Shown: in pieces, positions 1-13,624 of the stretch
Layout of the letters: each line of letters begins with the position of its first letter
How positions within the stretch are numbered: the stretch's first letter is position 1
NCBI GenBank assembly: GCA_022482495.1
Contig: JAKVPA010000003.1
Span: 1-64,000, forward strand
Source: Sphaerochaeta sp.
Lineage (GTDB): Bacteria > Spirochaetota > Spirochaetia > Sphaerochaetales > Sphaerochaetaceae
Reading direction: 5' to 3'
DNA: 64,000 nt
Notes under the pieces: generated by a model
Told to the model about the DNA's origin: nothing
Databases searched by the model: none
Seen by the model: the letters and a program-made list of their open reading frames with translations, nothing else
Position numbers and translations under genes: made by a program

Positions 1-447
1 CATGCTCTGGAAAGGAATAGTTTTCTCCATCAGTTATAAAAGTCGTGGGAAAATCCGAAGTAACATGATGAATGACTGAGGCATCTTGTGCTTGTTGGGA
101 AGTCCTCCATTCTTTTACACCAAGGTATTGTCTTGCGATAGCTTCCAGTGCTTTTGACAAAGAAGTGTTCTGCCCCATACTGTCAAATTTTGTAATATCA
201 TAGGGACCACAAAACAAAAGCGCTCCACGTAACGCTTTTTTGTCAGCGACTTGAGGTAGGTTTGTCCTTTGCGCATATTCAGATGAAGTCTGTGCCACAA
301 GGAACTGAGCCGCAATTTGCGCACCAGCAGAATCACCACCAACAAATATTCTCTGAGGATCAATACCGAATCTTTCCGCATTCTCCAAAAGAAATTGATA
401 GGCCTTTGCCGTTTGAAGAACCGGTGTGGGATATTGTGCGTCAGGCG
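1..447 (-). pseudogene. C-terminal part of IS-interrupted alpha/beta-hydrolase (esterase)
   Basis: This is the distal half of the esterase whose N-terminus lies at 1804-2195. Read on the minus strand from base 445 it stays open to the window edge and carries the nucleophile elbow GGDSAGAQIAAQ (Ser in G-D-S-A-G) and a following CGPYD segment, as in the hormone-sensitive-lipase/acetyl-esterase type of alpha/beta-hydrolase. It has no start codon of its own. Joined to the upstream half after removal of the insertion sequence and one 9-bp target copy, the reading is INYQVAPDAQYPTPVLQTAK, which is the expected continuous family sequence. The catalytic Asp and His must lie beyond the left edge. The gene is inactivated by the insertion. 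Confidence 0.85.
439..447. repeat. Target-site duplication, left copy (CGTCAGGCG)
   Basis: Nine-base direct repeat identical to 1804-1812, immediately outside the IS. Eight- or nine-base duplications are usual for IS256-family insertions. Removing one copy plus the IS restores the esterase frame exactly. Confidence 0.85.
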
Positions 448-1803
448 GCCTGTGTCCAGACATGTTCGCAATTTCATGTTGAATAAGTCATGAGAAGCCA
501 CATGCATTATGCAACCTCTTCCAATTTCAATCTCTGTTCAGTCAACGACTGGACACTCACATATGCTCTTTCCGATTGCCACTCCTCCTCATACTCGATG
601 AGGTAGGTGGTGATCAATCGGATGTATGAATCCTTGTTTGGAAAGATACCCTACAACCTTCGAACGTCTACGAATCTCTCGGTTCAATCGCTCCAGGGTG
701 TTGGTGGAGGATATCTTGCGATGGTCGATCTGGTCGAACCGATAGAATTGCAAAGAATCCTCCAATCCCTCTTCCAGGCAGCGGATTGCTTCAGGAAATT
801 GTTTTTCATAGGATTCCATGAATGACTGGGCATAAGAGCGGGCTTGCTTTTCATCAGGTTGCAGCCAGATGTGCTTCAGCTGCTTGGCAAAGCTATCCTT
901 ATGACGATGTCCCACATATGCAAGAATATTGCGCATGAAATGAACTTTGCAGCGTTGCCATGATGTTCCTATGAACTCTTTCCTGATAGCTGCCTGTAGG
1001 CCCTTGTGAGCATCACTGATACACAACCAGACCCGTTTGACTCCACGGTCTTTCAGATTCTGGAACAAGATACGATACGTTTCTTCAGATTCGTTATGCA
1101 TCGGTTCTACAGCGAGAATCTGGGCAGTACCATCAAGAGTGACCCCTTTTACTACAAGTACCGCCATACTCACTACATGGCCGTTCTCCCGGATCTTCTC
1201 GTATAAGGCGTCAATCCAAAGGATAGGATATTCCGCTTGGAGAGAACGATTCCTGAATTCCTCGACCATCGCATCCAGTTCCTTGTTCACTTCTGATACC
1301 TGTGATGCAGAAATCTGTTCGATACCCATGCTCTTGGCAAGCCGTTCGATTTTCCGTGTAGAGATGCCACTTACCCAAGCTTCCTGGATAATCTGCATCA
1401 GAGCCTGTTCGCTACGCTTCTTCGCTGTCACAAAGAAGGGTATATACCCACCTTTACGTAATTTCGGGATGGTCAGATACATCGTACCCATCCGGGTATC
1501 GAATCTTCGAACCCGAGTGCCACTGAGATGTGTGGTTCGTTCTGTACTGTGTTCGCCTTTTTGGGCTCCTACTTTGTTGGCCACCTCAATCTCCATGAAC
1601 TTTTCGGTGATCCACTGCAACATGCTCAGCATCGGATCCTCTTCAGTGATAAACGACAGTAGCTTTTTCTCCAGCTCTTTGGTAACATTTGAGTCGGTCA
1701 TGAGATGTTTTCCCTCCTAGTTTTGTTTGGTTACTTACTAGTATGGGTCTTCTCATGACCAATTTCAATCTACTGTCAAATTGCGAACTTAAGTATACGT
1801 GAT
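448..1803 (-). mobile_element. IS256-family insertion sequence, 1356 bp
   Basis: The element holds one transposase gene. Subterminal inverted repeats are visible: GTTCGCAATTT at 464-474 against its complement at 1778-1788, and GTCATGAGAAG at 487-497 against its complement at 1749-1759. The 15-16 bases outside the outer repeat match each other poorly, so the tips are placed from the flanking 9-bp duplication and from exact restoration of the interrupted esterase frame. Target duplication length and transposase type agree with the IS256 family. Whether it can still move depends on whether the transposase frameshift is real. Confidence 0.85.
507..1701 (-). CDS. IS256-family transposase (frameshifted near the C-terminus)
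   Basis: DDE transposase of the IS256/mutator type. The first acid is in ILWIDALYEKIR, the second in LCISDAHKGLQAA and the Glu in NTLERLNREIRRR, with the usual CKVHFMRN segment between. The uninterrupted frame ends early, at 589, with a non-family tail after IRRRSKVVGYLS. Dropping one base in the GGAAAG stretch at 640-645 continues it as PNKDSYIRLITTYLIEYEEE to a stop at 507, the normal family C-terminus, giving about 397 residues. The start at 1701 follows a purine-rich GGGAGGAAAA. Either the copy is dead or a base has been miscalled. Confidence 0.85.
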
Positions 1804-1812
1804 CGTCAGGCG
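1804..1812. repeat. Target-site duplication, right copy (CGTCAGGCG)
   Basis: Second copy of the 9-bp direct repeat at 439-447, directly abutting the other end of the insertion sequence and lying inside the esterase codons for A-P-D. Confidence 0.85.
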
Positions 1813-2195
1813 CAACCTGATAATTGATGGTCGCGGTAACAAAACCACGATCAGCCAACATTACCATATATGGCACGGTCTCTTCTTTTGATCCCGTGAT
1901 GAAAGCCCCACCGTGTACCCAAAGAATCAAAGGAAGCTTTTCCTCTGTATTCTTTGGCCGGTACACATCCAGTATTTCATTTTTCTTCGGATTTCCATAT
2001 GGTTGATCTACCCATCCGGTTACACGAGAACGGATCTCATCATAATCATCCGGCAGCACTACAGGACTGCTTTTCGTAAAATACCGCGCAATCGCTCTGA
2101 TGATCATCCCATCGGTTACACAACCACCCAAAATAAACATAAAAAACGGAACAAAGCAAAACCAAAACAAGATGGAAACGTTGTGTTTGTTTCAT
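1804..2195 (-). pseudogene. N-terminal part of IS-interrupted lipoprotein esterase
   Basis: Encodes the first part of an alpha/beta-hydrolase, with the oxyanion-hole motif HGGAF in LILWVHGGAFITGSKEE and a strand INYQVAPD cut by the IS. I place the start at 2195, where ATG gives MKQTQRFHLVLVLLCSVF and, after dropping one base in the A6 run at 2141-2146, MFILGGCVTDG. Together these make a textbook lipoprotein signal ending in the lipobox LGGC. As written the frame only opens at a TTG at 2170. The ATG has no Shine-Dalgarno but sits six bases after a -10 hexamer. An envelope-anchored esterase acting on an unknown acyl ester is inferred. Confidence 0.75.
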
Positions 2196-2308: not shown

Positions 2309-3991
2309 TTACTCTCCAGAAACCTCCACGCCCATCATGTTCTCGATCGGTGTTCCTGGGGCAGCCATCGGATACACCTTGTCATCCAACGGAATCTGGC
2401 AATCCAAAATCACCGGTTTGCCCAGTGCCAACGCTTTCTTGATGATAGGCTTGGGATCATCCTCAACCCCGATACGGAATCCTTCCGCGCCATACGCGCG
2501 AGCCAAACCAATCCAGTCGATCGGCGTATCAAGCGTCGTCTCACTGTACCGCCCCTGATAGAACAACGTCTGCCATTGCCGAACATTCCCCAGCGCGTGG
2601 TTATCCATCAACACAATGATGATGGGAAGCTGGTATCTGACGGCGGTAGTTAGCTCATTACTGTTCATCCGCAAGCAACCATCACCGGCGATATTGAACA
2701 CCCTGCTTTTGGGATTCGCCAATTGCGTACCGATCGCGGCGCCCGTCCCATATCCCATCGTTCCCAACCCACCACTGGTCAGGAAGTGCCGAGGCTGTTC
2801 ATGCTCCAGGAACATCGCGGACCACAGTTGGTTCTGCCCTACCTCCGTCGTGACGAAGTCCTCAGGTTTCAGACACGCCTGAACCGCCTCGAGAATCTCC
2901 CTGGGCCGCTTTGAGTCGGGATTTTGTCGTACTGGATACTTTTTCTTGTATCCCGCGACCGTTTCCATCCATGGCTGATGACTGCAAGGTTTCTTCTCTA
3001 GCTCCTTATTGAGCTTTTCCAAAACCAACCCGGCATCCCCGGCCAAATGGCAGAACGTCTTCACATTCTTGTCAAACTCAGCGGAATCCACATCGATCTG
3101 GATGATCTTCGCTCCATGGGCGAAATTTGAAGCCTTCCCGATGACACGATCGGAAAAACGAGCGCCGATGGACACCAAAAGATCACATCCGGAAACCGTA
3201 ATATTGGAAACCTTGGTGCCATGCATTCCGACCATCCCCGTGCAACGCGGGCTTTTTGTCGAAATCGCGCCCGCTCCCATCATGGAGAAACACGCCGGAC
3301 TATCCAACAGGTCCAGAAAACGTCTGACCTGCTCAGACGCGTTGCTGCTGATCACCCCACCTCCGATGTAGCACATCGGACGTTTGGACTCATACAGCAA
3401 CTTCAATGCAAGATCGAACTGGTTGGGGTTCAACCGTTTTCCATACCGATGGATGGGTTCCGGTTCCTTCCGCTCATACCCGAACGTCGATGTCATCACA
3501 TCTTTTGTGACATCCACCAACACAGGGCCGGGACGACCAGAACGAGCGATATGAAACGCGTTCCGTATCGTAGCAGCCAGTTCCGCGATGTCCTTGACGA
3601 TATAATTATGCTTGGTGATCGGCATGGTGATCCCGGTGATATCCACCTCCTGGAATGCGTCACGCCCAAGCAGATTGAGCGGAACGTTTCCCGTGATGGC
3701 AACCATCGGGACGCTGTCCATGTACGCAGTAGCGATTCCCGTCACCAGATTGGTGGCGCCAGGACCACTGGTGGCGATGCAGACACCAACCTTGCCGGTA
3801 GACCGTGCATATCCATCCGCCGCGTGGCTTGCTCCTTGTTCATGCGCAGTAAGAATATGCCGTATTCGGCTCTTATTTTGGTATAATGCATCATACAGAG
3901 GGAGTACGGTACCTCCGGGATACCCGAAGACCGTATTCACTCCCTGCTCTACCAAGCACTCGATGATGATTTGGGCACCGGTGATTTCCAT
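2309..3991 (-). CDS. ilvB: Acetolactate synthase, large (catalytic) subunit
   Basis: ThDP/FAD enzyme that condenses two pyruvates to 2-acetolactate (Val, Leu) or pyruvate with 2-oxobutyrate (Ile). At 560 residues it is full length: an N-terminal ThDP-binding PYR domain with the activating Glu in LTAHEQGASHAADGYAR, a central domain, and a C-terminal PP domain with the ThDP-Mg motif GDGCLRMNSNELTTAV and LMDN. Start chosen at ATG 3991 (MEITGAQI): AAGGAG lies just upstream, spanning the end of ilvD, and the longer in-frame extension is not family sequence. It is the last gene of the operon; the regulatory subunit ilvN is the first, about 9 kb upstream. Confidence 0.95.
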   Translation of the reverse strand: MEITGAQIIIECLVEQGVNTVFGYPGGTVLPLYDALYQNKSRIRHILTAHEQGASHAADGYARSTGKVGVCIATSGPGATNLVTGIATAYMDSVPMVAITGNVPLNLLGRDAFQEVDITGITMPITKHNYIVKDIAELAATIRNAFHIARSGRPGPVLVDVTKDVMTSTFGYERKEPEPIHRYGKRLNPNQFDLALKLLYESKRPMCYIGGGVISSNASEQVRRFLDLLDSPACFSMMGAGAISTKSPRCTGMVGMHGTKVSNITVSGCDLLVSIGARFSDRVIGKASNFAHGAKIIQIDVDSAEFDKNVKTFCHLAGDAGLVLEKLNKELEKKPCSHQPWMETVAGYKKKYPVRQNPDSKRPREILEAVQACLKPEDFVTTEVGQNQLWSAMFLEHEQPRHFLTSGGLGTMGYGTGAAIGTQLANPKSRVFNIAGDGCLRMNSNELTTAVRYQLPIIIVLMDNHALGNVRQWQTLFYQGRYSETTLDTPIDWIGLARAYGAEGFRIGVEDDPKPIIKKALALGKPVILDCQIPLDDKVYPMAAPGTPIENMMGVEVSGE

Positions 3992-3993
3992 GC

Positions 3994-5673
3994 TTACTCC
4001 TTGAACACTGCTCCAGTCGAAGCGCTGGTCACCAGTTTGGCGTACCGCGCCAGATAGCCGGTGGTGATCGGACACGGCTTCTTCTTCCAATTCTTCTTCC
4101 GTTCGGCAAGCGTCTTCTCATCGACAAGCAATTCCAGTTTCCCTTCCGTGATGTCGATCAGGATCTGGTCCCCTTCCTGGACGAACGCGATCGGGCCACC
4201 CTCGGCCGCTTCCGGACTGACATGTCCGATGGACGCGCCACGGGTCGCTCCGCTGAACCGACCGTCGGTGATCAACGCGACGCATTTGTCCAGCCCCATG
4301 CCGGCAATCTCACTGGTCGGTGCGAGCATCTCCCGCATTCCAGGACCACCTTTGGGTCCTTCATAGCGGATGACCACCACGTCATTGGGATGAATTTGTT
4401 TGCCAAGGATCGCCTTGGTGACCTCTTCCTCACTCTCAAACACCCGCGCGGGCCCTTGGTGGCGCAGCATCTCCGGGGCGACGGCGGCACGTTTGACCAC
4501 TGCTCCATCCGGTGCGAGATTGCCACGAAGGACAGCGATGCCACCGGTGACGCTGTATGGGTTGTCGAATGGTCTGATGACTTCGGTGTCATAGTTCTTC
4601 GCGTCCGCATACTGCTCTCCAATGGTTTTCCCGGATACGGTCTGGGCGTCCGTGTACAACAGATGCCCTTTGTCCAGCTCCTTCATCACCGCCATGACTC
4701 CGCCAGCCATGTTCAGATCCTCCATATGGTCTTTTCCCGCGGGGGCCAGATGGCAGAGGTTCGGCGTATGGCTGGAAATCTCATTGGCCATGAAGATGTC
4801 CAGCTTGATGCCGGCTTCATGGGCGATGGCAGGCAGGTGCAACATGGTGTTGGTGGAGCACCCCAGCGCCATATCCACCGTCAAAGCGTTGTGGAACGCC
4901 TTTTCCGTCATGATGTCCCGAGGGCGTACATTCCGCTTCAGGACATCCATCACGGCGTACCCGGCTTTTTTCGCAAGCCGCTCACGAGCGGAATACACGG
5001 CGGGAATCGTCCCGTTTCCGGGAAGCGCGATTCCGACGGCCTCGCACAAGCAGTTCATGCTGTTCGCCGTGTACATGCCGCTGCAGGAACCACAAGTCGG
5101 ACAGCAGGCATCCTCCCAGGCGCGCACCCCTGCCTCATCCAATGTTCCGGCGGTATACTTGCCCACCGCCTCGAACATCGTCGAGAGACTCATGCCACGC
5201 TTGTCCCCACCAGGAACATGGCCGGCAAGCATCGGGCCACCGGAAACAAAGACACAGGGGATGTTCAGCCGAAGGGCAGCCATCAACATGCCAGGGACGA
5301 TCTTGTCGCAGTTCGGGACAAACACCAAGGCGTCAAACGGATGGGCCTTTGCCATGATCTCGATGCTGTCGGCGATCAACTCACGGGAACAGAGGGAGTA
5401 TTTCATGCCGGTATGCCCCATGGCGATGCCATCACACACACCGATGGTCGGGATGGCCACCGGATTTCCACCCGCTTCCCGGACGCCGGCTTTCACCGCG
5501 TCCACGATTCTGCGAAGCCCCACATGACCGGGAATGATCTCATTGGTGGAATCAACAATGCCGATCATCGGCATGGCAAGCTCTTCCTCCGTCCAGCCGA
5601 GGGCCTTCATCAATGAACGATGGGGAGCGCGCTGCACCCCCTGGGTGACGATATGTGAACGTAATTCTTCCAT
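3994..5673 (-). CDS. ilvD: Dihydroxy-acid dehydratase
   Basis: Iron-sulfur dehydratase converting 2,3-dihydroxy-isovalerate and -methylvalerate to the 2-keto acids of Val and Ile. The 559-residue protein has the cluster/metal cysteines in NCDKIVPG and [20 protein letters not shown], and GCSTNT further on. Start set at ATG 5673 (MEELRSH), two bases after the leuB stop, with GGAGG nine bases upstream; a TTG two codons earlier is less likely. Two bases separate its stop from the ilvB ATG, so translation is tightly coupled. Confidence 0.95.
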
Positions 5674-5675
5674 GA

Positions 5676-6734
5676 TCAAATCCTCCGGGCGACCTGATCG
5701 CCCATTTCCTTTGTACCGACCTTTTGCATTCCGTCGGTGTAGATATCACTGGTACGGTAACCAGCGTCCAAGGTCTCTCCCACGGCGCGCTCGATGGCGG
5801 CCGCTTCCTGCTCCAGACCGAACGAATAGCGCAGCATCATTGCCACGGACAGAATCGTGGCAAGGGGATTGGCGATGTTCTTGCCCGCGATGTCAGGGGC
5901 GGATCCATGGATCGGCTCATACATTCCACGGGAACCTTCCCCCAGGGAAGCGGACGGCAACATTCCGATGGAACCGGTGATCTGGCTTGCCTCGTCGGAG
6001 AGAATGTCTCCGAACATGTTGCACGTGACGATCACGTCAAACTGCTTGGGATTGCGGACTAACTGCATTGAGGCATTATCCACGTACAGATGGTTCACCG
6101 CCACCTCGGGATACTCCGGCGCGATGTTCTCCACGATGGAGCGCCACAGCTGGCTGGAAGCAAGGATGTTCGCCTTGTCCACCGACGTGAGCCGTTTCTG
6201 GCGCTTCATGGCGATCTCGAATCCCTTGCGGACGATCCGCTCGATCTCATAGCGATGGTATTCCATCGTGTCGAACGCGCCATCTTCCGTCGTACCACGC
6301 TTTCCGAAGTAAATGCCCCCGGTCAGCTCCCGTACCACCATCACATCCAGACCGTCCCCGATGATCTCATCCTTCAAGGGAGATGCGTGCCGTAATTGGG
6401 GATACATCATCGCCGGGCGCAGATTGCAGAACAATCCAAGACCTTTGCGCAGTCCGAGCAACGCTTTTTCCGGACGGATGGAAGGATCGACATGATCCCA
6501 TTTGGGGCCGCCCACCGCGCCGAGCAAGACACTGTCGCTGGCTTTGCACGCGGCAAGCGTCTCATCGGTCATCGGCACGCCGTACCGATCGATGGAGCAA
6601 CCTCCCAACAGGTAGGATTCACAGACAAACTCATGGCCGTAGGCTTTCCCGACGGCATGCAGTACTTTTACCGCTTCCCCAACCACATCCGGACCAATGC
6701 CGTCTCCCGGCACCAGGGCGATGACTTTTTTCAT
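5676..6734 (-). CDS. leuB: 3-isopropylmalate dehydrogenase
   Basis: NAD-dependent oxidative decarboxylation of 3-isopropylmalate in leucine synthesis; in this operon it should also act on the 3-methylmalate made through cimA and LeuCD. The 352-residue protein opens with [17 protein letters not shown] and carries the metal/substrate segment [19 protein letters not shown] and [19 protein letters not shown]. Its ATG overlaps the leuD stop (ATGA). Confidence 0.95.
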
Positions 6735-7225
6735 TTCCCTGCCTCCTTGCGCATGTAACCGGCCAGTCCGCCGGCAGCGATCAGATCCTGCATGAACGGG
6801 GGGAACGGCTCAGCTGAGTAGCTTTTCCCCGTCGTTTCATCGGTGATCGTCCCGGTGGAAAAGTCCACCTGGACGACATCACCGTCCTTGATGCCATCCA
6901 CCGCTTCCGGGCACTCCAGGATGGGAAGCCCGATGTTCAGGCTGTTGCGGTAGAAAATCCGGGCGAACGTCCGCGCGATGACGCAGGAGACTCCGCTTTC
7001 CTTGATGGCGATCGGGGCGTGCTCCCTGCTGGAACCACATCCGAAGTTCTTGTCCGCCACGATGATGTCTCCCGGTTTCACCCGCCGGATGAACGTCTTG
7101 TCCAGGTCTTCCATACAGTGGGAGGCCAGTTCCTTGGGATCGCTGGTATTCAGATACCGCGCAGGGATGATCACGTCCGTATCGACGTTGTCTCCGTAGC
7201 GGAATACATTTCCTCTTGCTTTCAT
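6731..7225 (-). CDS. leuD: 3-isopropylmalate dehydratase, small subunit
   Basis: Swivelling-domain subunit of isopropylmalate isomerase, partner of LeuC. It has 164 residues, the short (about 165 residue) type, with [13 protein letters not shown] and [15 protein letters not shown], the loop contacting substrate. Start placed at ATG 7225, which shares its A with the leuC stop (TGATG) and has GGAG eight bases upstream; a GTG one codon earlier is possible. Its stop overlaps the leuB start. Confidence 0.95.
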
Positions 7226-8496
7226 CACGCTTTCTCCTCAATGGTCGTGGGATCGGTCAGGTAACCGGTCACCGCGGATGCCGCCGCGACGGCGGGACTG
7301 GCGAGGTACACCTCACTCTTCACATGCCCCATGCGGCCGACGAAATTCCTGTTGGTGGTGCTCACCGCCCGTTCTCCTTCGGCGAGAATCCCCATGTGAC
7401 CGCCGAGACACGGTCCACAAGTGGGCGTCGAGACGGCGCATCCGGCGTCGACGAAAATATCGAACAGCCCCTCATGCATGGCGTCCTGCCAAATCTTCTG
7501 CGTGGCGGGGATCACGATGCACCGCACTCCATCAGCAACCTTGTGGCCTTTCAGGAGGTGGGCGGCGGCTTCCAGGTCGGAAAGCCTTCCGTTGGTGCAG
7601 GAACCAATGACCACCTGGTCAATCTTCACCCGTGGCATGTCATCGAACGTGTGGGTGTTTTCCGGCAGATGGGGGAACGCCACGGTGCTCTTCAGTTGGG
7701 ACAGGTCAATGTCGTACGTCTTCACGTACACCGCGTCAGGATCGGCGGTGTAAACAACCGGTTTCTTCGCCCCATGAGCCTCCAAATAGGCGATGGTCTG
7801 TTCATCGACCGGAAAGATTCCGTTCTTCGCGCCGGCCTCGATGGCCATGTTGCAGACGGTGAAGCGGTCATCCATCGTCAGGTTGGCAACACCGTCACCG
7901 GCGAACTCCATCGACTCGTACAGCGCGCCGTCCACCCCGATCATTCCGATGATGTGGAGGATCAGATCCTTGCCGGACACATACTTGCCCATTTTTCCAT
8001 GCAGGTTGAACTTCAGCGCCGCCGGCACCTTGAACCAATCCTTCCCCCAGCTCATGCCACAGGCCATGTCCGTCGATCCGACGCCGGTGGAGAACGCCCC
8101 CACCGCGCCATACGTGCAGGTGTGGCTGTCCGCGCCGATGATCAGATCCCCGGCGGTGACCAACCCCTGTTCCGGCAGCAAGGCATGCTCGATCCCCACC
8201 CGTCCCACTTCGTAGTAATGGGAGATTTGCTGGTCAGCGGCAAACTGCCTGAGGCATTTGCACTGTTCCGCAGCCTTGATGTCCTTGTTCGGCGTGAAGT
8301 GGTCGGGGACCAGCGCGACGCGGTCCTTGTCAAACACCTTCTCCTTGCCGAACTTGGGGAACTCACGGATAGCTACAGGACTGGTGATGTCATTTCCCAG
8401 CACAAGATCCAGGTTCGCCATCACCAGCTGTCCCGCATGTACGCCATCCAGTCCCGCGTGATGGGCGAGAATCTTCTGTGTCATTGTCATTCCCAT
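7225..8496 (-). CDS. leuC: 3-isopropylmalate dehydratase, large subunit
   Basis: Aconitase-family [4Fe-4S] subunit of isopropylmalate isomerase. At 423 residues it is the shorter bacterial/archaeal-type LeuC. Cluster cysteines are visible in [13 protein letters not shown] and [13 protein letters not shown]; substrate-site [21 protein letters not shown] is intact. Start at ATG 8496 ([15 protein letters not shown]) with GGAGGAG ten bases upstream, one base after the cimA stop. It should serve both the isopropylmalate and the citramalate branches. Confidence 0.95.
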
Positions 8497-8497
8497 G

Positions 8498-10094
8498 TTA
8501 TTTCGCTCCTCCGATGCTTTCCACACCGTTCTTGATCAAATAGTATTCAATGCTGTCCACCAAAGCGAGCCAGCTCGCCTCGATGATGTCTTTGCTTACG
8601 CCAATGGTCGACCAGCTCTCCTTGCCGTCCGTCGACTCGATCAAAACCCTGACTTTCGAAGCGGTCGCCTCGGAAGCGGAGAGCACCCTTACCTTGTAAT
8701 CCGTCAGGTGGACGGTCTTCAGCGTCGGATAGAACGGCTCCAAGACTTTCCGGAGCGCCTTGTCCAACGCGTTCACCGGACCTTCCCCTTCCGCCGCAGT
8801 GATCGCGGGAGTGTTTCCCCACCAGCACCTTCACCACGGCGTCATGGCTGTAGCCGCTGTTCGGGTCGGCGTACGGCAGGCTCCCGATGGTCTGGTAATG
8901 CACCAGCGAAAAGAAGGGATGGTAGGCGGCCAAGTGACGCCGGATGACCAGATCGAACGAGCTCTCCGCGCCTTCAAACTGATATCCGTCCGCTTCCCGG
9001 CGCTTGAGGAGATCCATCAGCGCGATGATCTGTGGATCATCCTTCTTCGAGCCGGGAAGCACCGTCCGGATACGATCCAGCATCAACGCGCGCCCGGCAA
9101 CCTCGCTCATCAGCAACCGACGCTCGTTCCCCACGGAGGATGGCTCGACATGTTCGTAGGCAAGCGGGTTCTTTTTCACCCCGTCGATGTGCATGCCGCC
9201 CTTGTGGGCGAACGCCGAAGCGCCGACATACGGCATGGAGTGAGGGATGGCCACGTTGCTGATCTCCGCCACTTTCCTGCAGACGGGGGTCAACCGGGTA
9301 AGGCGCTCCCCTCCGGTACATTCCATCCCTTTCTTCAGGACCAGATCCGCCATGATGGTGGACAGGCATGCGTTGCCACACCGCTCTCCGTAGCCCAACA
9401 GCGTTCCCTGGACCTGGACCGCGCCGGCATCCACTGCCGCCAGGCTGTTCGCCACGGCGCACCCGCTGTCGTCATGGGCATGGATGCCGATGGGGCAGGA
9501 AAACGTCTCCGTCACCGCTTTGGTCACGCGTCCCACCACATCCGGCAGCATCCCTCCCCTGGTCTCGCAGAGCACCAGCGCCTCCACTCCGGCTTCCCGG
9601 GCGACGCGCAGACATTCCATCGCGTAGGCGGGATCCGCCTGATAGCCATCGAAGAAATGCTCGGCGTCAAAGAACACCTTCCGTCCTTTCCCCACAAGAT
9701 ACGCCACAGAGTCCCTGATCATCTCCAGGTTTTCCGCTTTGGTGGCATGGAGGATTTCGGAGACCTGGAACGTCCAGGTTTTGCCGAAGACCGCCACATA
9801 CTCCGTCTCCGCCTCAAGCAACGCGTTGAGGTTGGCATCCTGCTCGGCCGTCTTTCCCTTGCGACGGGTGGAACCGAAGGCGACGAGACGGGCGTGATTG
9901 AGGCGTAACTCCTTGGCAGCCCGGAAAAACTCCTGGTCCTTGGCGTTGCTTCCCGGGTTTCCCGCCTCAACGAAGGCGATCCCCAGCTCGTCCAGCGCGC
10001 GGGTGATCTTCAGCTTGTCCTCGACGGAAAAACTGATGCCCTCGCCTTGGCTGCCGTCGCGCAGGGTGGAATCGTACAGGTCAATCGTGCGCAT
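8498..10094 (-). CDS. cimA: (R)-citramalate synthase (one-base frameshift)
   Basis: Condenses acetyl-CoA with pyruvate to citramalate, the threonine-independent route to 2-oxobutyrate and isoleucine. HMGL-like barrel with [12 protein letters not shown] and [14 protein letters not shown], then a C-terminal LeuA-type regulatory domain. The frame breaks at the C4 run 8817-8820: removing one base joins ...[10 protein letters not shown] to [21 protein letters not shown] and on to VESIGGAK with the stop at 8498, about 531 residues. As written, the main frame runs on into unrelated sequence. The ATG at 10094 lies 14 bases inside the end of leuA. The missing C-terminus would be the allosteric domain, so a real mutant might be feedback-insensitive rather than dead; sequencing error is more likely. 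Confidence 0.9.
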
Positions 10095-11694
10095 GGTTCT
10101 GCTTATCCGAATGCTCATAGAGCATGTCATTGGCGAAACTCATCGTGCTGTCCGCGGCGCTCATGCCGCTTCCGGCTGGAAGCTGCGACTCATCCAGCAT
10201 GTGGTTGACGGCCGAAAGGCAAGAGAGGATCGAAGCCTCGATGACATCGGTGGAGACGCCCCTGCCACGATAGAACCCCGTCCCGTCGGAAATCTTCACC
10301 AGGACCTCACCCAACGCGTCACGGTGTTCCGTCACCGCCTGCAGTCCATACTCCTCCAGGCTGAACGGATGCTTGATGATCTTCTCCACGCACCGAAGGG
10401 CGCTGTACACAGGACCGGTCCCGAACGCCACTTCCTGGTAGCTCTTGCCGGCCCTCTCCAGCGTGACACACGCCGTGCTGGTGATGGTGTTGCCGCTGTT
10501 GACGACGTAATTGACCAGTTTCCAGGCATTGGGATTCGGTTTCTGGCCGTTTTCCACCAGGGCGATCAAATCGCGGTCCTCGATGGTTTTCTTCCGGTCG
10601 GCGAGATTCTTGAAATCCTCGAACAGATGGGACATCTGCTCATCGGAAACATGATAGCCCAGCTCTTCCAGACGCTTGCGGAGGGCGTGCACCCCGCTGT
10701 GCTTGCCTAGAATCAACGTGGTCTTCTGCACGCCGACCGATTCCGGCGTCATGATCTCGTACGTCCTGCTGTTGGCCATCATGCCGTGCTGGTGGATGCC
10801 GCTCTCATGGGCGAACGCGTTTGCTCCGACGATCGCCTTGGACGGGTTGATCTTCACCCCGGTGATGGTGGACAGAAGCCGGGCGGAAGGATAGATCTGC
10901 TCGGTATGCACGCCGGTCGCATAGGGATACTCATCGCTTCGGGTACGGACATTCATCACCAGCTCTTCCAAGCTGGCGTTCCCCGCCCGCTCTCCGATGC
11001 CACAGACGGTGCATTCCACCTGGCGTGCCCCCGCTTCCACCGCCGCCAGGCTGTTGGCCACCGCCATCCCCAGGTCGTTGTGGCAATGACAGGAAAGGGT
11101 GACCTTGTCGATGCCGTCACACTTCTCCCGGACGGTGGTGAACATCGTACGGATATCCTCCGGCGTGGAGTACCCGACGGTATCCGGCAGGTTGATCGTC
11201 GTAGCCCCCGCCTTGACGACCGCCTCCACCACCTGGCAGAGGTAATCAAGATCCGTCCGGGTGGCGTCCTCACAGGAGAACTCCACATCCGGGCAGAGAT
11301 TGCGGGCGTAAGCGACCATGTCCACTGCCTGCTGCAGGGCGTGTTCCCTGGTCATCTTCAGCTTGTACTGCAGGTGCAAATCACTGGTGGCCAGGAATGT
11401 GTGGATCCTAGGACGTTTTGCCAGTTTCACCGCTTCCCACGCGGCGTCGATGTCTTTGGTCAACGCACGGGAAAGCGAGGCGACCACCGTGTCGTCCACC
11501 GCCGCGGCGATCTCTTTCACGCTTTCGAAATCACCGGGGGAAGCGATGGCGAACCCCGCTTCCAGGATGTCCACACCCAAGAGACGCAACTGTCGGGCCA
11601 TGCGGAGTTTCTCCTCAAGGTTCATGCTGTATCCCGGGGCCTGTTCCCCATCCCGAAGCGTCGTATCAAATATCAAAATCCGTTCGTTCGCCAT
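10081..11694 (-). CDS. leuA: 2-isopropylmalate synthase
   Basis: First committed step to leucine, acetyl-CoA + 2-oxoisovalerate. The 537-residue protein has the HMGL-like barrel ([14 protein letters not shown], metal-binding [24 protein letters not shown]), linker, and a complete C-terminal LeuA dimer/feedback domain (residues about 390-510). The ATG at 11694 is preceded by GGAGGGGAAACGAA. It is a distinct paralogue of the adjacent cimA, whose motif is [12 protein letters not shown]. Confidence 0.95.
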
Positions 11695-11716: not shown

Positions 11717-12715
11717 TCAATTCTGCTTCAGCCAGCTCATCAGCGAGCGAAGACGCTCTCCGACCTGTTCCAGCTGACTGGTCTGTTCCATCCGCTTGGT
11801 GGCGTTGAAATACGGCCGTCCGACCTGGTTCTCAAGCAGCCAGTCACGGGCGAACGATCCATCCTGAATCCTGCCCAGGATTTCCTTCATCGCGTCCTTG
11901 CTCTGCTGGTTGATCACCTTCGGTCCGGAGACATAGTCGCCGTATTCCGCCGTGTCCGAGCAGGAGGCGCGCATCAAGGTCAATCCGCCGCGGTTGATCA
12001 AATCGGTGATCAGCTTCATCTCGTGGCAGCATTCGAAGTACGCCATCTCCGGCTGGTAGCCAGCGGCAACCAGCGTGTCGAATCCCGCTTTGATCAGATG
12101 GGAGACCCCACCACAGAGCACCGCCTGCTCGCCGAACAGGTCTGTCTCCGTCTCTTCCTTGAACGATGTCTCGAAAATTCCGGCCCTTCCCGCGCCCAGT
12201 CCCTTGGCGTAGGCCATGGCAACCTGTTTGGAGTCTCCGCTGGGATCCTGATGAACGGCGATCAAGCACGGAACGCCTTTTCCTTCCTGATACTGGCTGC
12301 GCACTGTGGCGCCCGGCCCTTTGGGGGCGATCATGATGACGTTGACGTCAGCCGGCGGCACGATCTGGCCGTAGTGGATGTTAAAGCCATGGGCGAAAGC
12401 CAGATACTGGCCTTTTCTCATGAACGGCCCGATATCATTGGCGTACAGCTTGGACTGCTTCTCGTCGTTGACCAGAATCATGACGATGTCCGCCTTCTTC
12501 ACCGCTTCGGCGGTGGTCAGCACTTCAAAGCCATCCTCTTCAGCGCGCTTCCAGCTCTTCGAACCCTTGTACAGGCCGATGATGACATGCACGCCACTCT
12601 CATGCAGGTTCAACGCGTGGGCGTGTCCCTGGTTCCCATACCCGACGATGGCCACGGTCTTTCCTTCCAACTTCCCGAGATCAGCATCTGAGTCATAATA
12701 CATCTTCGCACTCAT
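11717..12715 (-). CDS. ilvC: Ketol-acid reductoisomerase (class I)
   Basis: NADPH-dependent isomeroreduction of acetolactate and acetohydroxybutyrate. The 332-residue class I enzyme has the Rossmann motif [14 protein letters not shown], the cofactor-specificity loop [16 protein letters not shown], and the Mg ligands in [12 protein letters not shown] and the C-terminal knotted domain ([13 protein letters not shown]). Start set at ATG 12715 ([10 protein letters not shown]), where GGGGAG is seven bases upstream; a TTG five codons earlier is in frame but would include that Shine-Dalgarno. Confidence 0.95.
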
Positions 12716-12775
12716 TTCCTTGCTCCCCAAATCGATATTTCCTAGAAGCCATACGGCTCCTATCGAACATACAGC

Positions 12776-13303
12776 TCATTCGTCCACCACGCCCAGTTCC
12801 ATCTGCGAGGAGGGGCCGCGTCCCAGCGCGGTGATGCCGGTACGCACCATCTCGACAATCCCATACTCCTTGCACAGGTCAATGAACGACGCGATCTTGT
12901 CAAGGCTGCCGGTGATCTGCAGCGTGATGGCGGTGCTGGCCACATCCTCCACCTTGGCCTTGAAGATCTCGGCCAGTTCGATGATGTGGGTGCGGGTGTC
13001 CTCCGTCGTGGCGATCTTGATCAACACCAGCTCCTTCTGGATGGAATCGGCAGGGATCATTTCCGCCACGTTGATCACATCGACCAGTTTCTCCACCTGG
13101 TGCTTGATCTGCTCCACCACATCACGACTACCGGTCACCACGATGGTGATGCGCGAGACCGTCTCGTCCTGCGTCTCCCCCACCGAAAGGCTGTCGATGT
13201 TGTAGCCCCGTCTGCTGAACAGGCCTACGACACGCATCAATACGCCGCTGCGGTTATAGACCAAAATGGAGAGAGTGTAACGATTGCCGGTAGTAGTTTT
13301 CAT
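12776..13303 (-). CDS. ilvN: Acetolactate synthase, small (regulatory) subunit
   Basis: Valine-binding regulatory subunit that activates IlvB. The 175-residue protein has an N-terminal ACT domain (TLSILVYNRSGVLMRVVGLF, GYNIDSLSVG) and a C-terminal ALS_ss domain (residues about 85-160), the long form of the family. Start at ATG 13303 (MKTTTGNRY), eight bases after AAGGAG. First structural gene of the operon and 25 bases below the leader terminator. Unusual is that its catalytic partner is the last gene. Confidence 0.95.
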   Translation of the reverse strand: MKTTTGNRYTLSILVYNRSGVLMRVVGLFSRRGYNIDSLSVGETQDETVSRITIVVTGSRDVVEQIKHQVEKLVDVINVAEMIPADSIQKELVLIKIATTEDTRTHIIELAEIFKAKVEDVASTAITLQITGSLDKIASFIDLCKEYGIVEMVRTGITALGRGPSSQMELGVVDE

Positions 13304-13327
13304 GTCGGATGCTCCTTCTTGCATATG

Positions 13328-13350
13328 AAAAGACGCTTCGCCAGGCGAAG
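13328..13350 (-). terminator. Attenuator terminator ahead of ilvN
   Basis: Minus-strand hairpin CTTCGC-CTG-GCGAAG followed by CGTCTTTTC, lying between the leader-peptide stop and ilvN. The stem is short (6 bp) and the T-run only four, so efficiency is uncertain. Its position matches the terminator of a ribosome-mediated attenuator. Confidence 0.6.
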
Positions 13351-13358
13351 TATTGAAC

Positions 13359-13396
13359 CCACGGACCGTAACAGATTGAAGAATCTGCCGCCGTGG
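13359..13396 (-). promoter_or_regulatory. Leader hairpin, candidate antiterminator/pause structure
   Basis: Directly after the leader stop codon: outer stem CCACGG/CCGTGG with a nested stem CAGATT/AATCTG around a CTTC loop. This is where an alternative structure controlled by ribosome position would have to form. I did not find an unambiguous pairing with the terminator stem, so its exact role is inferred. Confidence 0.45.
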
Positions 13397-13558
13397 TTAG
13401 CAAATGACGACGAGTAGAATGGTAAGAAGGGTAATCAGAAGGAGGGAGAGGACAGGCAACAGGAGGGAAGATGCAGAAAAGTAAAAAGCGGTCGCGGTGG
13501 TGCTTTTCTGCATCATCGTACAGTTCATCTGATTCTTCCTGTCCATTGCGAATTTCAC
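13397..13558 (-). CDS. ilv-leu operon leader peptide
   Basis: Short ORF between the promoter and the terminator hairpin. From GTG 13558, eight bases after GGAGG, it encodes 53 residues ending in LLLPVLSLLLITLLTILLVV-I-C and a stop. Of the last 22 residues, 11 are Leu, 3 Ile and 3 Val, exactly the three end products of the operon. An internal ATG at 13546 would give a 49-residue version. The composition, position and downstream hairpins fit a control peptide whose translation stalls when charged Leu/Ile/Val tRNA is scarce. It is longer than the classical enteric leaders. A 9-bp inverted repeat (13473-13481 with 13503-13511) lies inside it. Confidence 0.8.
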   Translation of the reverse strand: MKFAMDRKNQMNCTMMQKSTTATAFYFSASSLLLPVLSLLLITLLTILLVVIC

Positions 13559-13594
13559 GGTCCAATCCTCCAGGCCGAACGGCCTTTTCCTAGA

Positions 13595-13624
13595 TTGATA
13601 GCAAAAACGGATGGAGAATGTCAA
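13595..13624 (-). promoter_or_regulatory. Promoter of the ilv-leu operon
   Basis: TTGACA (13624-13619), 18-base spacer, TATCAA (13600-13595) on the minus strand, giving a start near 13588 and a roughly 30-base leader to the GTG of the control peptide. Confidence 0.7.

Follow-up and report, generated by a model that had tools for sequence, protein, structure and literature searches.

In the window, by which we mean the whole 64,000-nucleotide stretch analyzed, a branched-chain amino acid operon lies on the minus strand in the order ilvN-ilvC-leuA-cimA-leuC-leuD-leuB-ilvD-ilvB (Table 1). An earlier note on this DNA called the operon complete. This is correct for the gene content, and the eight genes other than cimA are intact; however, the reading frame of cimA breaks near 8.8 kb, with positions 2-423 and 439-523 of TIGR00977 matched in different frames, which reflects either a real frameshift or an assembly error. 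The likely ilvN start, at 13303, is preceded by the Shine-Dalgarno sequence AAGAAGGAG (13320-13312), whereas an alternative ATG at 13324 has no comparable one. Just downstream of ilvB, by reading, a transposase-like ORF (589-1701) seems to interrupt an alpha/beta-hydrolase-like gene (2-2170, minus strand).

Table 1. Coordinates of the ilv-leu operon and its leader region in the window
Feature	Position	Strand	Details
Likely promoter	13594..13624	-	-35 TTGACA 13624-13619, 18 nt, TATCAAT 13600-13594; from sequence
Shine-Dalgarno of leader ORF	13567..13571	-	GGAGG; spacing to GTG 13558, 8 nt
Leader peptide ORF	13397..13558	-	53 codons, GTG 13558 to TAA 13397; VKFAMDRKNQMNCTMMQKSTTATAFYFSASSLLLPVLSLLLITLLTILLVVIC
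Perfect 12-bp inverted repeat	13470..13514	-	GATGCAGAAAAG / CTTTTCTGCATC, 21-nt loop; just 5' of control codons
Control region	13400..13465	-	22 codons, 17 Leu/Ile/Val; CTC/CTT/CTA, ATT and GTC favored
Box A	13391..13396	-	CCACGG; directly 3' of leader stop codon
Inner stem of A:B hairpin (putative antiterminator)	13387-13382/13377-13372	-	CAGATT/AATCTG
Box B	13359..13364	-	CCGTGG; pairs with box A
Terminator-like hairpin and tail	13328..13350	-	CTTCGC-CTG-GCGAAG 13350-13336, tail CGTCTTTT; weak alone
ilvN, acetolactate synthase small subunit	12776..13303	-	NF008864, 203.9 bits
ilvC, ketol-acid reductoisomerase	11717..12730	-	
leuA, 2-isopropylmalate synthase	10081..11694	-	NF002086, 731.7 bits
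cimA, citramalate synthase	8498..10130	-	TIGR00977; two frames (8547-10130 and 8498-8776)
leuC, isopropylmalate dehydratase large subunit	7225..8526	-	TIGR02083
leuD, isopropylmalate dehydratase small subunit	6731..7228	-	TIGR02084
leuB, isopropylmalate dehydrogenase	5676..6734	-	TIGR00169
ilvD, dihydroxy-acid dehydratase	3994..5679	-	NF002068 / TIGR00110
ilvB, acetolactate synthase large subunit	2309..3994	-	TIGR00118; start near 3994

Upstream of ilvN, the GTG-initiated ORF described in the earlier note is present on the minus strand with a good Shine-Dalgarno sequence, and its C-terminal 22 residues (LLLPVLSLLLITLLTILLVVIC) contain 17 Leu, Ile or Val (11 L, 3 I, 3 V); its true start may be an in-frame ATG downstream of the GTG. 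The two structures said to follow it are also found. A large nested hairpin between boxes A and B (13396-13359, fold z -3.4) begins immediately 3' of the stop codon, and a terminator-like hairpin with its tail stands 25 nt ahead of the likely ilvN start. The perfect inverted repeat within the ORF has no counterpart in the relatives and is particular to the window genome, where it could form a pause or sequestering hairpin. For the promoter, many relatives carry a TTGACA-17/18-TACAAA-type element ahead of their leader, at a place matching that in the window; the window element itself was absent from the output of a strict consensus scan. Transcription is thus expected to start near 13588, upstream of the whole leader ORF, and not downstream of 13400, which the earlier note had named as an observation against the leader.

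Conservation of the leader ORF

Each ORF ending 40-160 nt upstream of ilvN was scored by the number of Leu, Ile and Val among its last 14 residues. The window leader scores 11 of 14, a value reached in 0 of 3000 dinucleotide shuffles, whose maximum was 9. Among 95 ilvN loci, from Sphaerochaetaceae plus one neighbour, a leader ORF was accepted at the equivalent place in 88, and a score of at least 8 was found in 86, in contrast to 26 of 1900 shuffles (1.4%). At least one of the seven loci without an accepted ORF carries a leader-like sequence just below the threshold (MHRINIISSLSSLIIISLLRS), and five more ilvN-led loci in neighbouring families have the leader. The named loci from an IlvN alignment search belong to Sphaerochaeta, Pleomorphochaeta and Candidatus Ornithospirochaeta. 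Conversely, none of the 19 loci of other spirochaete families with ilvB-first operons has a Leu/Ile/Val-rich ORF ahead of ilvB. The leader peptides range from 17 to more than 90 residues in length and have nothing but the Leu/Ile/Val tail in common; over the last 14 codons, these residues make up 70% in frame versus 25% and 13% in the other two frames. Collectively, the shuffles and the relatives exclude chance, and the leader ORF of the window is real. Its absence from relatives had been proposed as grounds for refutation; instead, it is conserved.

In a scan of named genomes, the nearest IlvN proteins beyond the family itself were clostridial ones and some from Methanosarcina, and not those of most other spirochaetes. 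This similarity pattern suggests that the operon may have been transferred. The clostridial loci with the closest IlvN have no such leader.

Synonymous codon usage in the leaders

The leaders were chosen by their amino acids and not by their codons, so codon usage provides a test independent of the selection. Based on 15 loci, whose genomes are related and not mutually independent, the G-ending Leu codons CTG and TTG account for 4 of 89 Leu codons in the leaders versus 324 of 668 in the adjacent genes (Fisher 3e-18). Similarly, Ile is encoded by ATT in 50 of 72 cases versus 123 of 555, and Val by GTA in 22 of 38 versus 90 of 615. Across all 88 leaders, CTG and TTG are 10 of 410 Leu codons (2%, versus 49% in neighbouring genes), and CTA makes up 30% (versus 4%). 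The window follows the same pattern, as all three Ile codons of its leader are ATT, whereas its operon uses ATC in 80%. Among possible Leu control codons in E. coli, CUA is ranked first, CUG lower, and UUA and UUG lower still (PMC1183508). The bias in the leaders appears to agree with this prediction of attenuator control-codon theory, which is based on E. coli, and host tRNA pools may differ. Judged from these sequences, the selected feature of the leader would be its codons and not the peptide sequence.

Such a bias, invisible to the protein, bears directly on the possibility that the ORF encodes a small hydrophobic membrane microprotein with unrelated hairpins downstream. A 22-residue stretch with 17 Leu, Ile or Val could span a membrane. 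However, the peptides vary in length from 17 to more than 90 residues, share no conserved sequence beyond the tail, and end nearly always 0-3 nt before box A. We regard a microprotein as extremely improbable.

Hairpins downstream of the leader stop codon

Box A lies 0-3 nt from the leader stop codon in 81 of the 88 loci, with box B some 25-35 nt further on, and three architectures are built on this pair. In group I (g16, which includes Ornithospirochaeta, and g11), box B (GCCCGTGG) pairs either with box A or with a third box, C, that is followed by a U-run. The A:B pairing holds in 96.7% of cells and the terminator helix B:C in 87.1%; none of 500 shuffles reached the covariation score of B:C, and a U-run of at least 5 is present in 46 of 47 copies. 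This arrangement reads as a textbook switch, in which the predicted A:B antiterminator and the U-run terminator are mutually exclusive. In group II (g4, g5, g15, g17, g20 and g21), mostly without a U-run, the partner of box B is either A or a second CCACGG-like box within a longer stem. Group III consists of g3 (Sphaerochaeta), g18 (Pleomorphochaeta) and g1 (the window), and it combines A:B and a covarying inner stem with a separate downstream hairpin. Here, A:B and its inner stem show five pairs with double changes in 15 cells; shuffles averaged 4.5, and 0 of 500 were as high. The covariation analysis of relatives that the earlier note had proposed thus speaks for the hairpin that follows the stop codon. 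Moreover, the near-invariance of boxes A and B fits boxes that would serve two partners, as attenuator boxes serving several partners stay conserved in Actinobacteria (PMC1262725). Elsewhere in the genome, CCACGG...CCGTGG hairpins occur at nine other places versus one for a reversed-pattern control.

A U-run of at least 5 is found in only 3 of 28 group III copies; a few members, G133, G136 and G123, do show a clear U-run terminator. In the window, the tail reads UCUUUU with four consecutive U only, and taken by itself the terminator does not stand out from chance (1 found versus 1.2 expected; z -1.65). In the predicted fold, A:B and the terminator hairpin can coexist, so that the fold by itself provides no switch. 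Folds with box A masked suggest an overlap between the two, as GUGG of box B may also close the terminator stem at its base, but the statistics for this are weak (window z -0.6, group mean -0.9). The description of the system as enteric-style fits best for g16 and g11, with their three mutually exclusive boxes and U-run; in the window group, the terminator is weak and its exclusion by the antiterminator at most putative.

After the pre-ilvN hairpin, a TATAYCC motif (CTTATACCC, GTATCC, TATATCC) occurs in Sphaerochaeta and Pleomorphochaeta, including several group III loci. Its pairing with box B was considered as a rule for group III and rejected; z was about -3.9 in two near-identical Pleomorphochaeta sequences and weak otherwise (mean z -0.9), and the pairing is a tentative idea at most. 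A pairing of box A with a terminator arm in the window (CCACGGCGG with UUCGCCUGG), seen by eye, was likewise dropped, having no counterpart in relatives.

A leucine-only leader in sister species

For the genus of the window, only two other genomes were examined, and IlvN, IlvC and IlvB had no match in either. Both retain leuA-leuC-leuD-leuB-ilvD, without cimA at the locus, behind a leader ending in SLSLLLTSVTR, with Leu codons CTA, CTC, CTC and CTT and a tail free of Ile. In one of them, a stem GTCACCCGT/ACGGGTGAC lies immediately ahead of the stop codon and covers it, and the other has a T-G pair in this stem. The loss of Ile/Val synthesis thus appears to be accompanied by a leucine-only leader, which is the predicted direction; the two genomes are close relatives and would record one event at most. 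As a natural experiment, loss of Ile/Val synthesis would here go with loss of Ile/Val codons from the leader. The leu locus shares divergent two-component neighbour genes with the window locus, and, comparably to the TATAYCC motif ahead of ilvN, CAGCATATCC follows a hairpin ahead of leuA.

Proposed mechanism of attenuation

Ribosome-mediated attenuation is well supported because leader conservation, codon bias, the A:B hairpin, the group I switch and the leucine-only sister leader all bear on it, and we consider it probable that a ribosome-mediated transcription attenuator controls the ilv-leu operon of the window. In the proposed mechanism, RNA polymerase would start near 13588, with a ribosome trailing along the leader ORF. 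With ample charged Leu, Ile and Val tRNA, the ribosome would reach the stop codon and cover box A, A:B would not pair, and the terminator ahead of ilvN would form. With any of the three short, Leu above all, the ribosome would stall in the 22-codon tail and leave box A free. The A:B hairpin would then form first and hinder the terminator, so that the operon would be transcribed. In the window, A:B would probably hinder the terminator by occupying the GUGG of box B, which would otherwise close the terminator stem at its base. From these data, we infer ribosome-stalling sensing with good support and termination in the window with moderate support. A similar-looking ilvB leader of Streptomyces coelicolor showed no dependence on its control codons (PMC1262725), which counts against the mechanism.

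Two other readings were weighed. One retains the leader as a sensor of Leu, Ile and Val by stalling but lets the window group respond by means other than intrinsic termination: through Rho, through pausing of RNA polymerase or at the level of ilvN translation. In its favor, the leader, the codon bias and A:B persist without a U-run in most copies of groups II and III, group III has the TATAYCC motif after its second hairpin, and actinobacterial cys leaders without terminators, for which Rho was suggested, offer a published parallel (PMC1262725). However, the window does have a hairpin with UCUUUU at the expected place, clear U-run terminators exist in the three members of its group named above, and the ilvN Shine-Dalgarno sequence lies downstream of the predicted hairpins; overall, we find a non-intrinsic output unlikely. 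The other reading takes the weak terminator, the frameshifted cimA and the loss of most of the pathway in two sister species as signs of a decayed attenuator, inherited and recognizable in the window genome with its regulation lost. The retained lineage codon bias (ATT in 3 of 3 versus ATC at 80% in the operon), the hairpin at z -3.4 and the eight other intact genes make decay highly improbable.

Attenuation by a stalling ribosome thus remains our preferred reading. As a possible variant, which we hold only tentatively, Sphaerochaeta-type spirochaetes including the window may have kept the sensor and replaced the intrinsic terminator by a hairpin with the conserved TATAYCC and no U-run, acting perhaps through Rho or programmed pausing. 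If true, one orthologous attenuator family would have changed its output with the sensor unchanged.

Comparison with known systems

Leader-peptide attenuation has been described in Proteobacteria and Actinobacteria, and then in Firmicutes (PMC2965389). The enteric leuLABCD, ilvBN and ilvGMEDA systems (Rfam Leu_leader RF00512) resemble the present one in a leader packed with control codons, the preference for CUA over UUA/UUG, an operon for the same amino acids and, best seen in group I, a choice between antiterminator and terminator. In contrast to the enteric 1-2-3-4 layout, the hairpin here starts at the stop codon and involves two or three boxes, and a single ilvN-led operon serves all three amino acids in a spirochaete. 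Searches with Rfam families at gathering and relaxed thresholds gave nothing meaningful in the window leader and no hit in 20 relatives.

By description, the leader peptides ahead of ilvB in Actinobacteria (PMC1262725, PMC10272879, PMC13236596) are alike in their branched-chain leader ORF, downstream terminator and conserved boxes with several partners; however, they belong to another phylum and to the gene order ilvBNC. Firmicutes likewise have leader peptides before ilv-leu operons (Staphylococcus aureus, PMC5794164; Listeria, PMC5864092), but these, again likened by description, are described together with CodY. In Leptospira, an ilvB motif with seven members was not explained by its authors as a leader peptide (PMC8632094). 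The earlier note had suggested that the attenuator may be undescribed for this lineage, and we found no spirochaete branched-chain leader-peptide attenuator in the open literature, although a mention in the survey of Lopatovskaya et al. 2010 is possible. Collectively, this seems to be a known kind of switch, conserved across Sphaerochaetaceae, in a lineage where its description appears to be missing.

A family-wide case in Spirochaetota would extend the range of leader-peptide attenuation. Nearly 90 orthologous leaders of one operon, in which peptide, hairpins and terminator vary independently, would also allow a wide test of the selective-charging rule for control codons beyond enterics. Finally, the contrast with T-box control drawn in the earlier note stands for the operon but not for the family. 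The T-box riboswitch (RF00230), which senses tRNA charging as an attenuator does, has no match within the 64-kb window and hence none at the branched-chain operon, whereas most genomes of Sphaerochaetaceae have one T-box match; that of the window genome lies before thrS (contig 13, 16864-17098).
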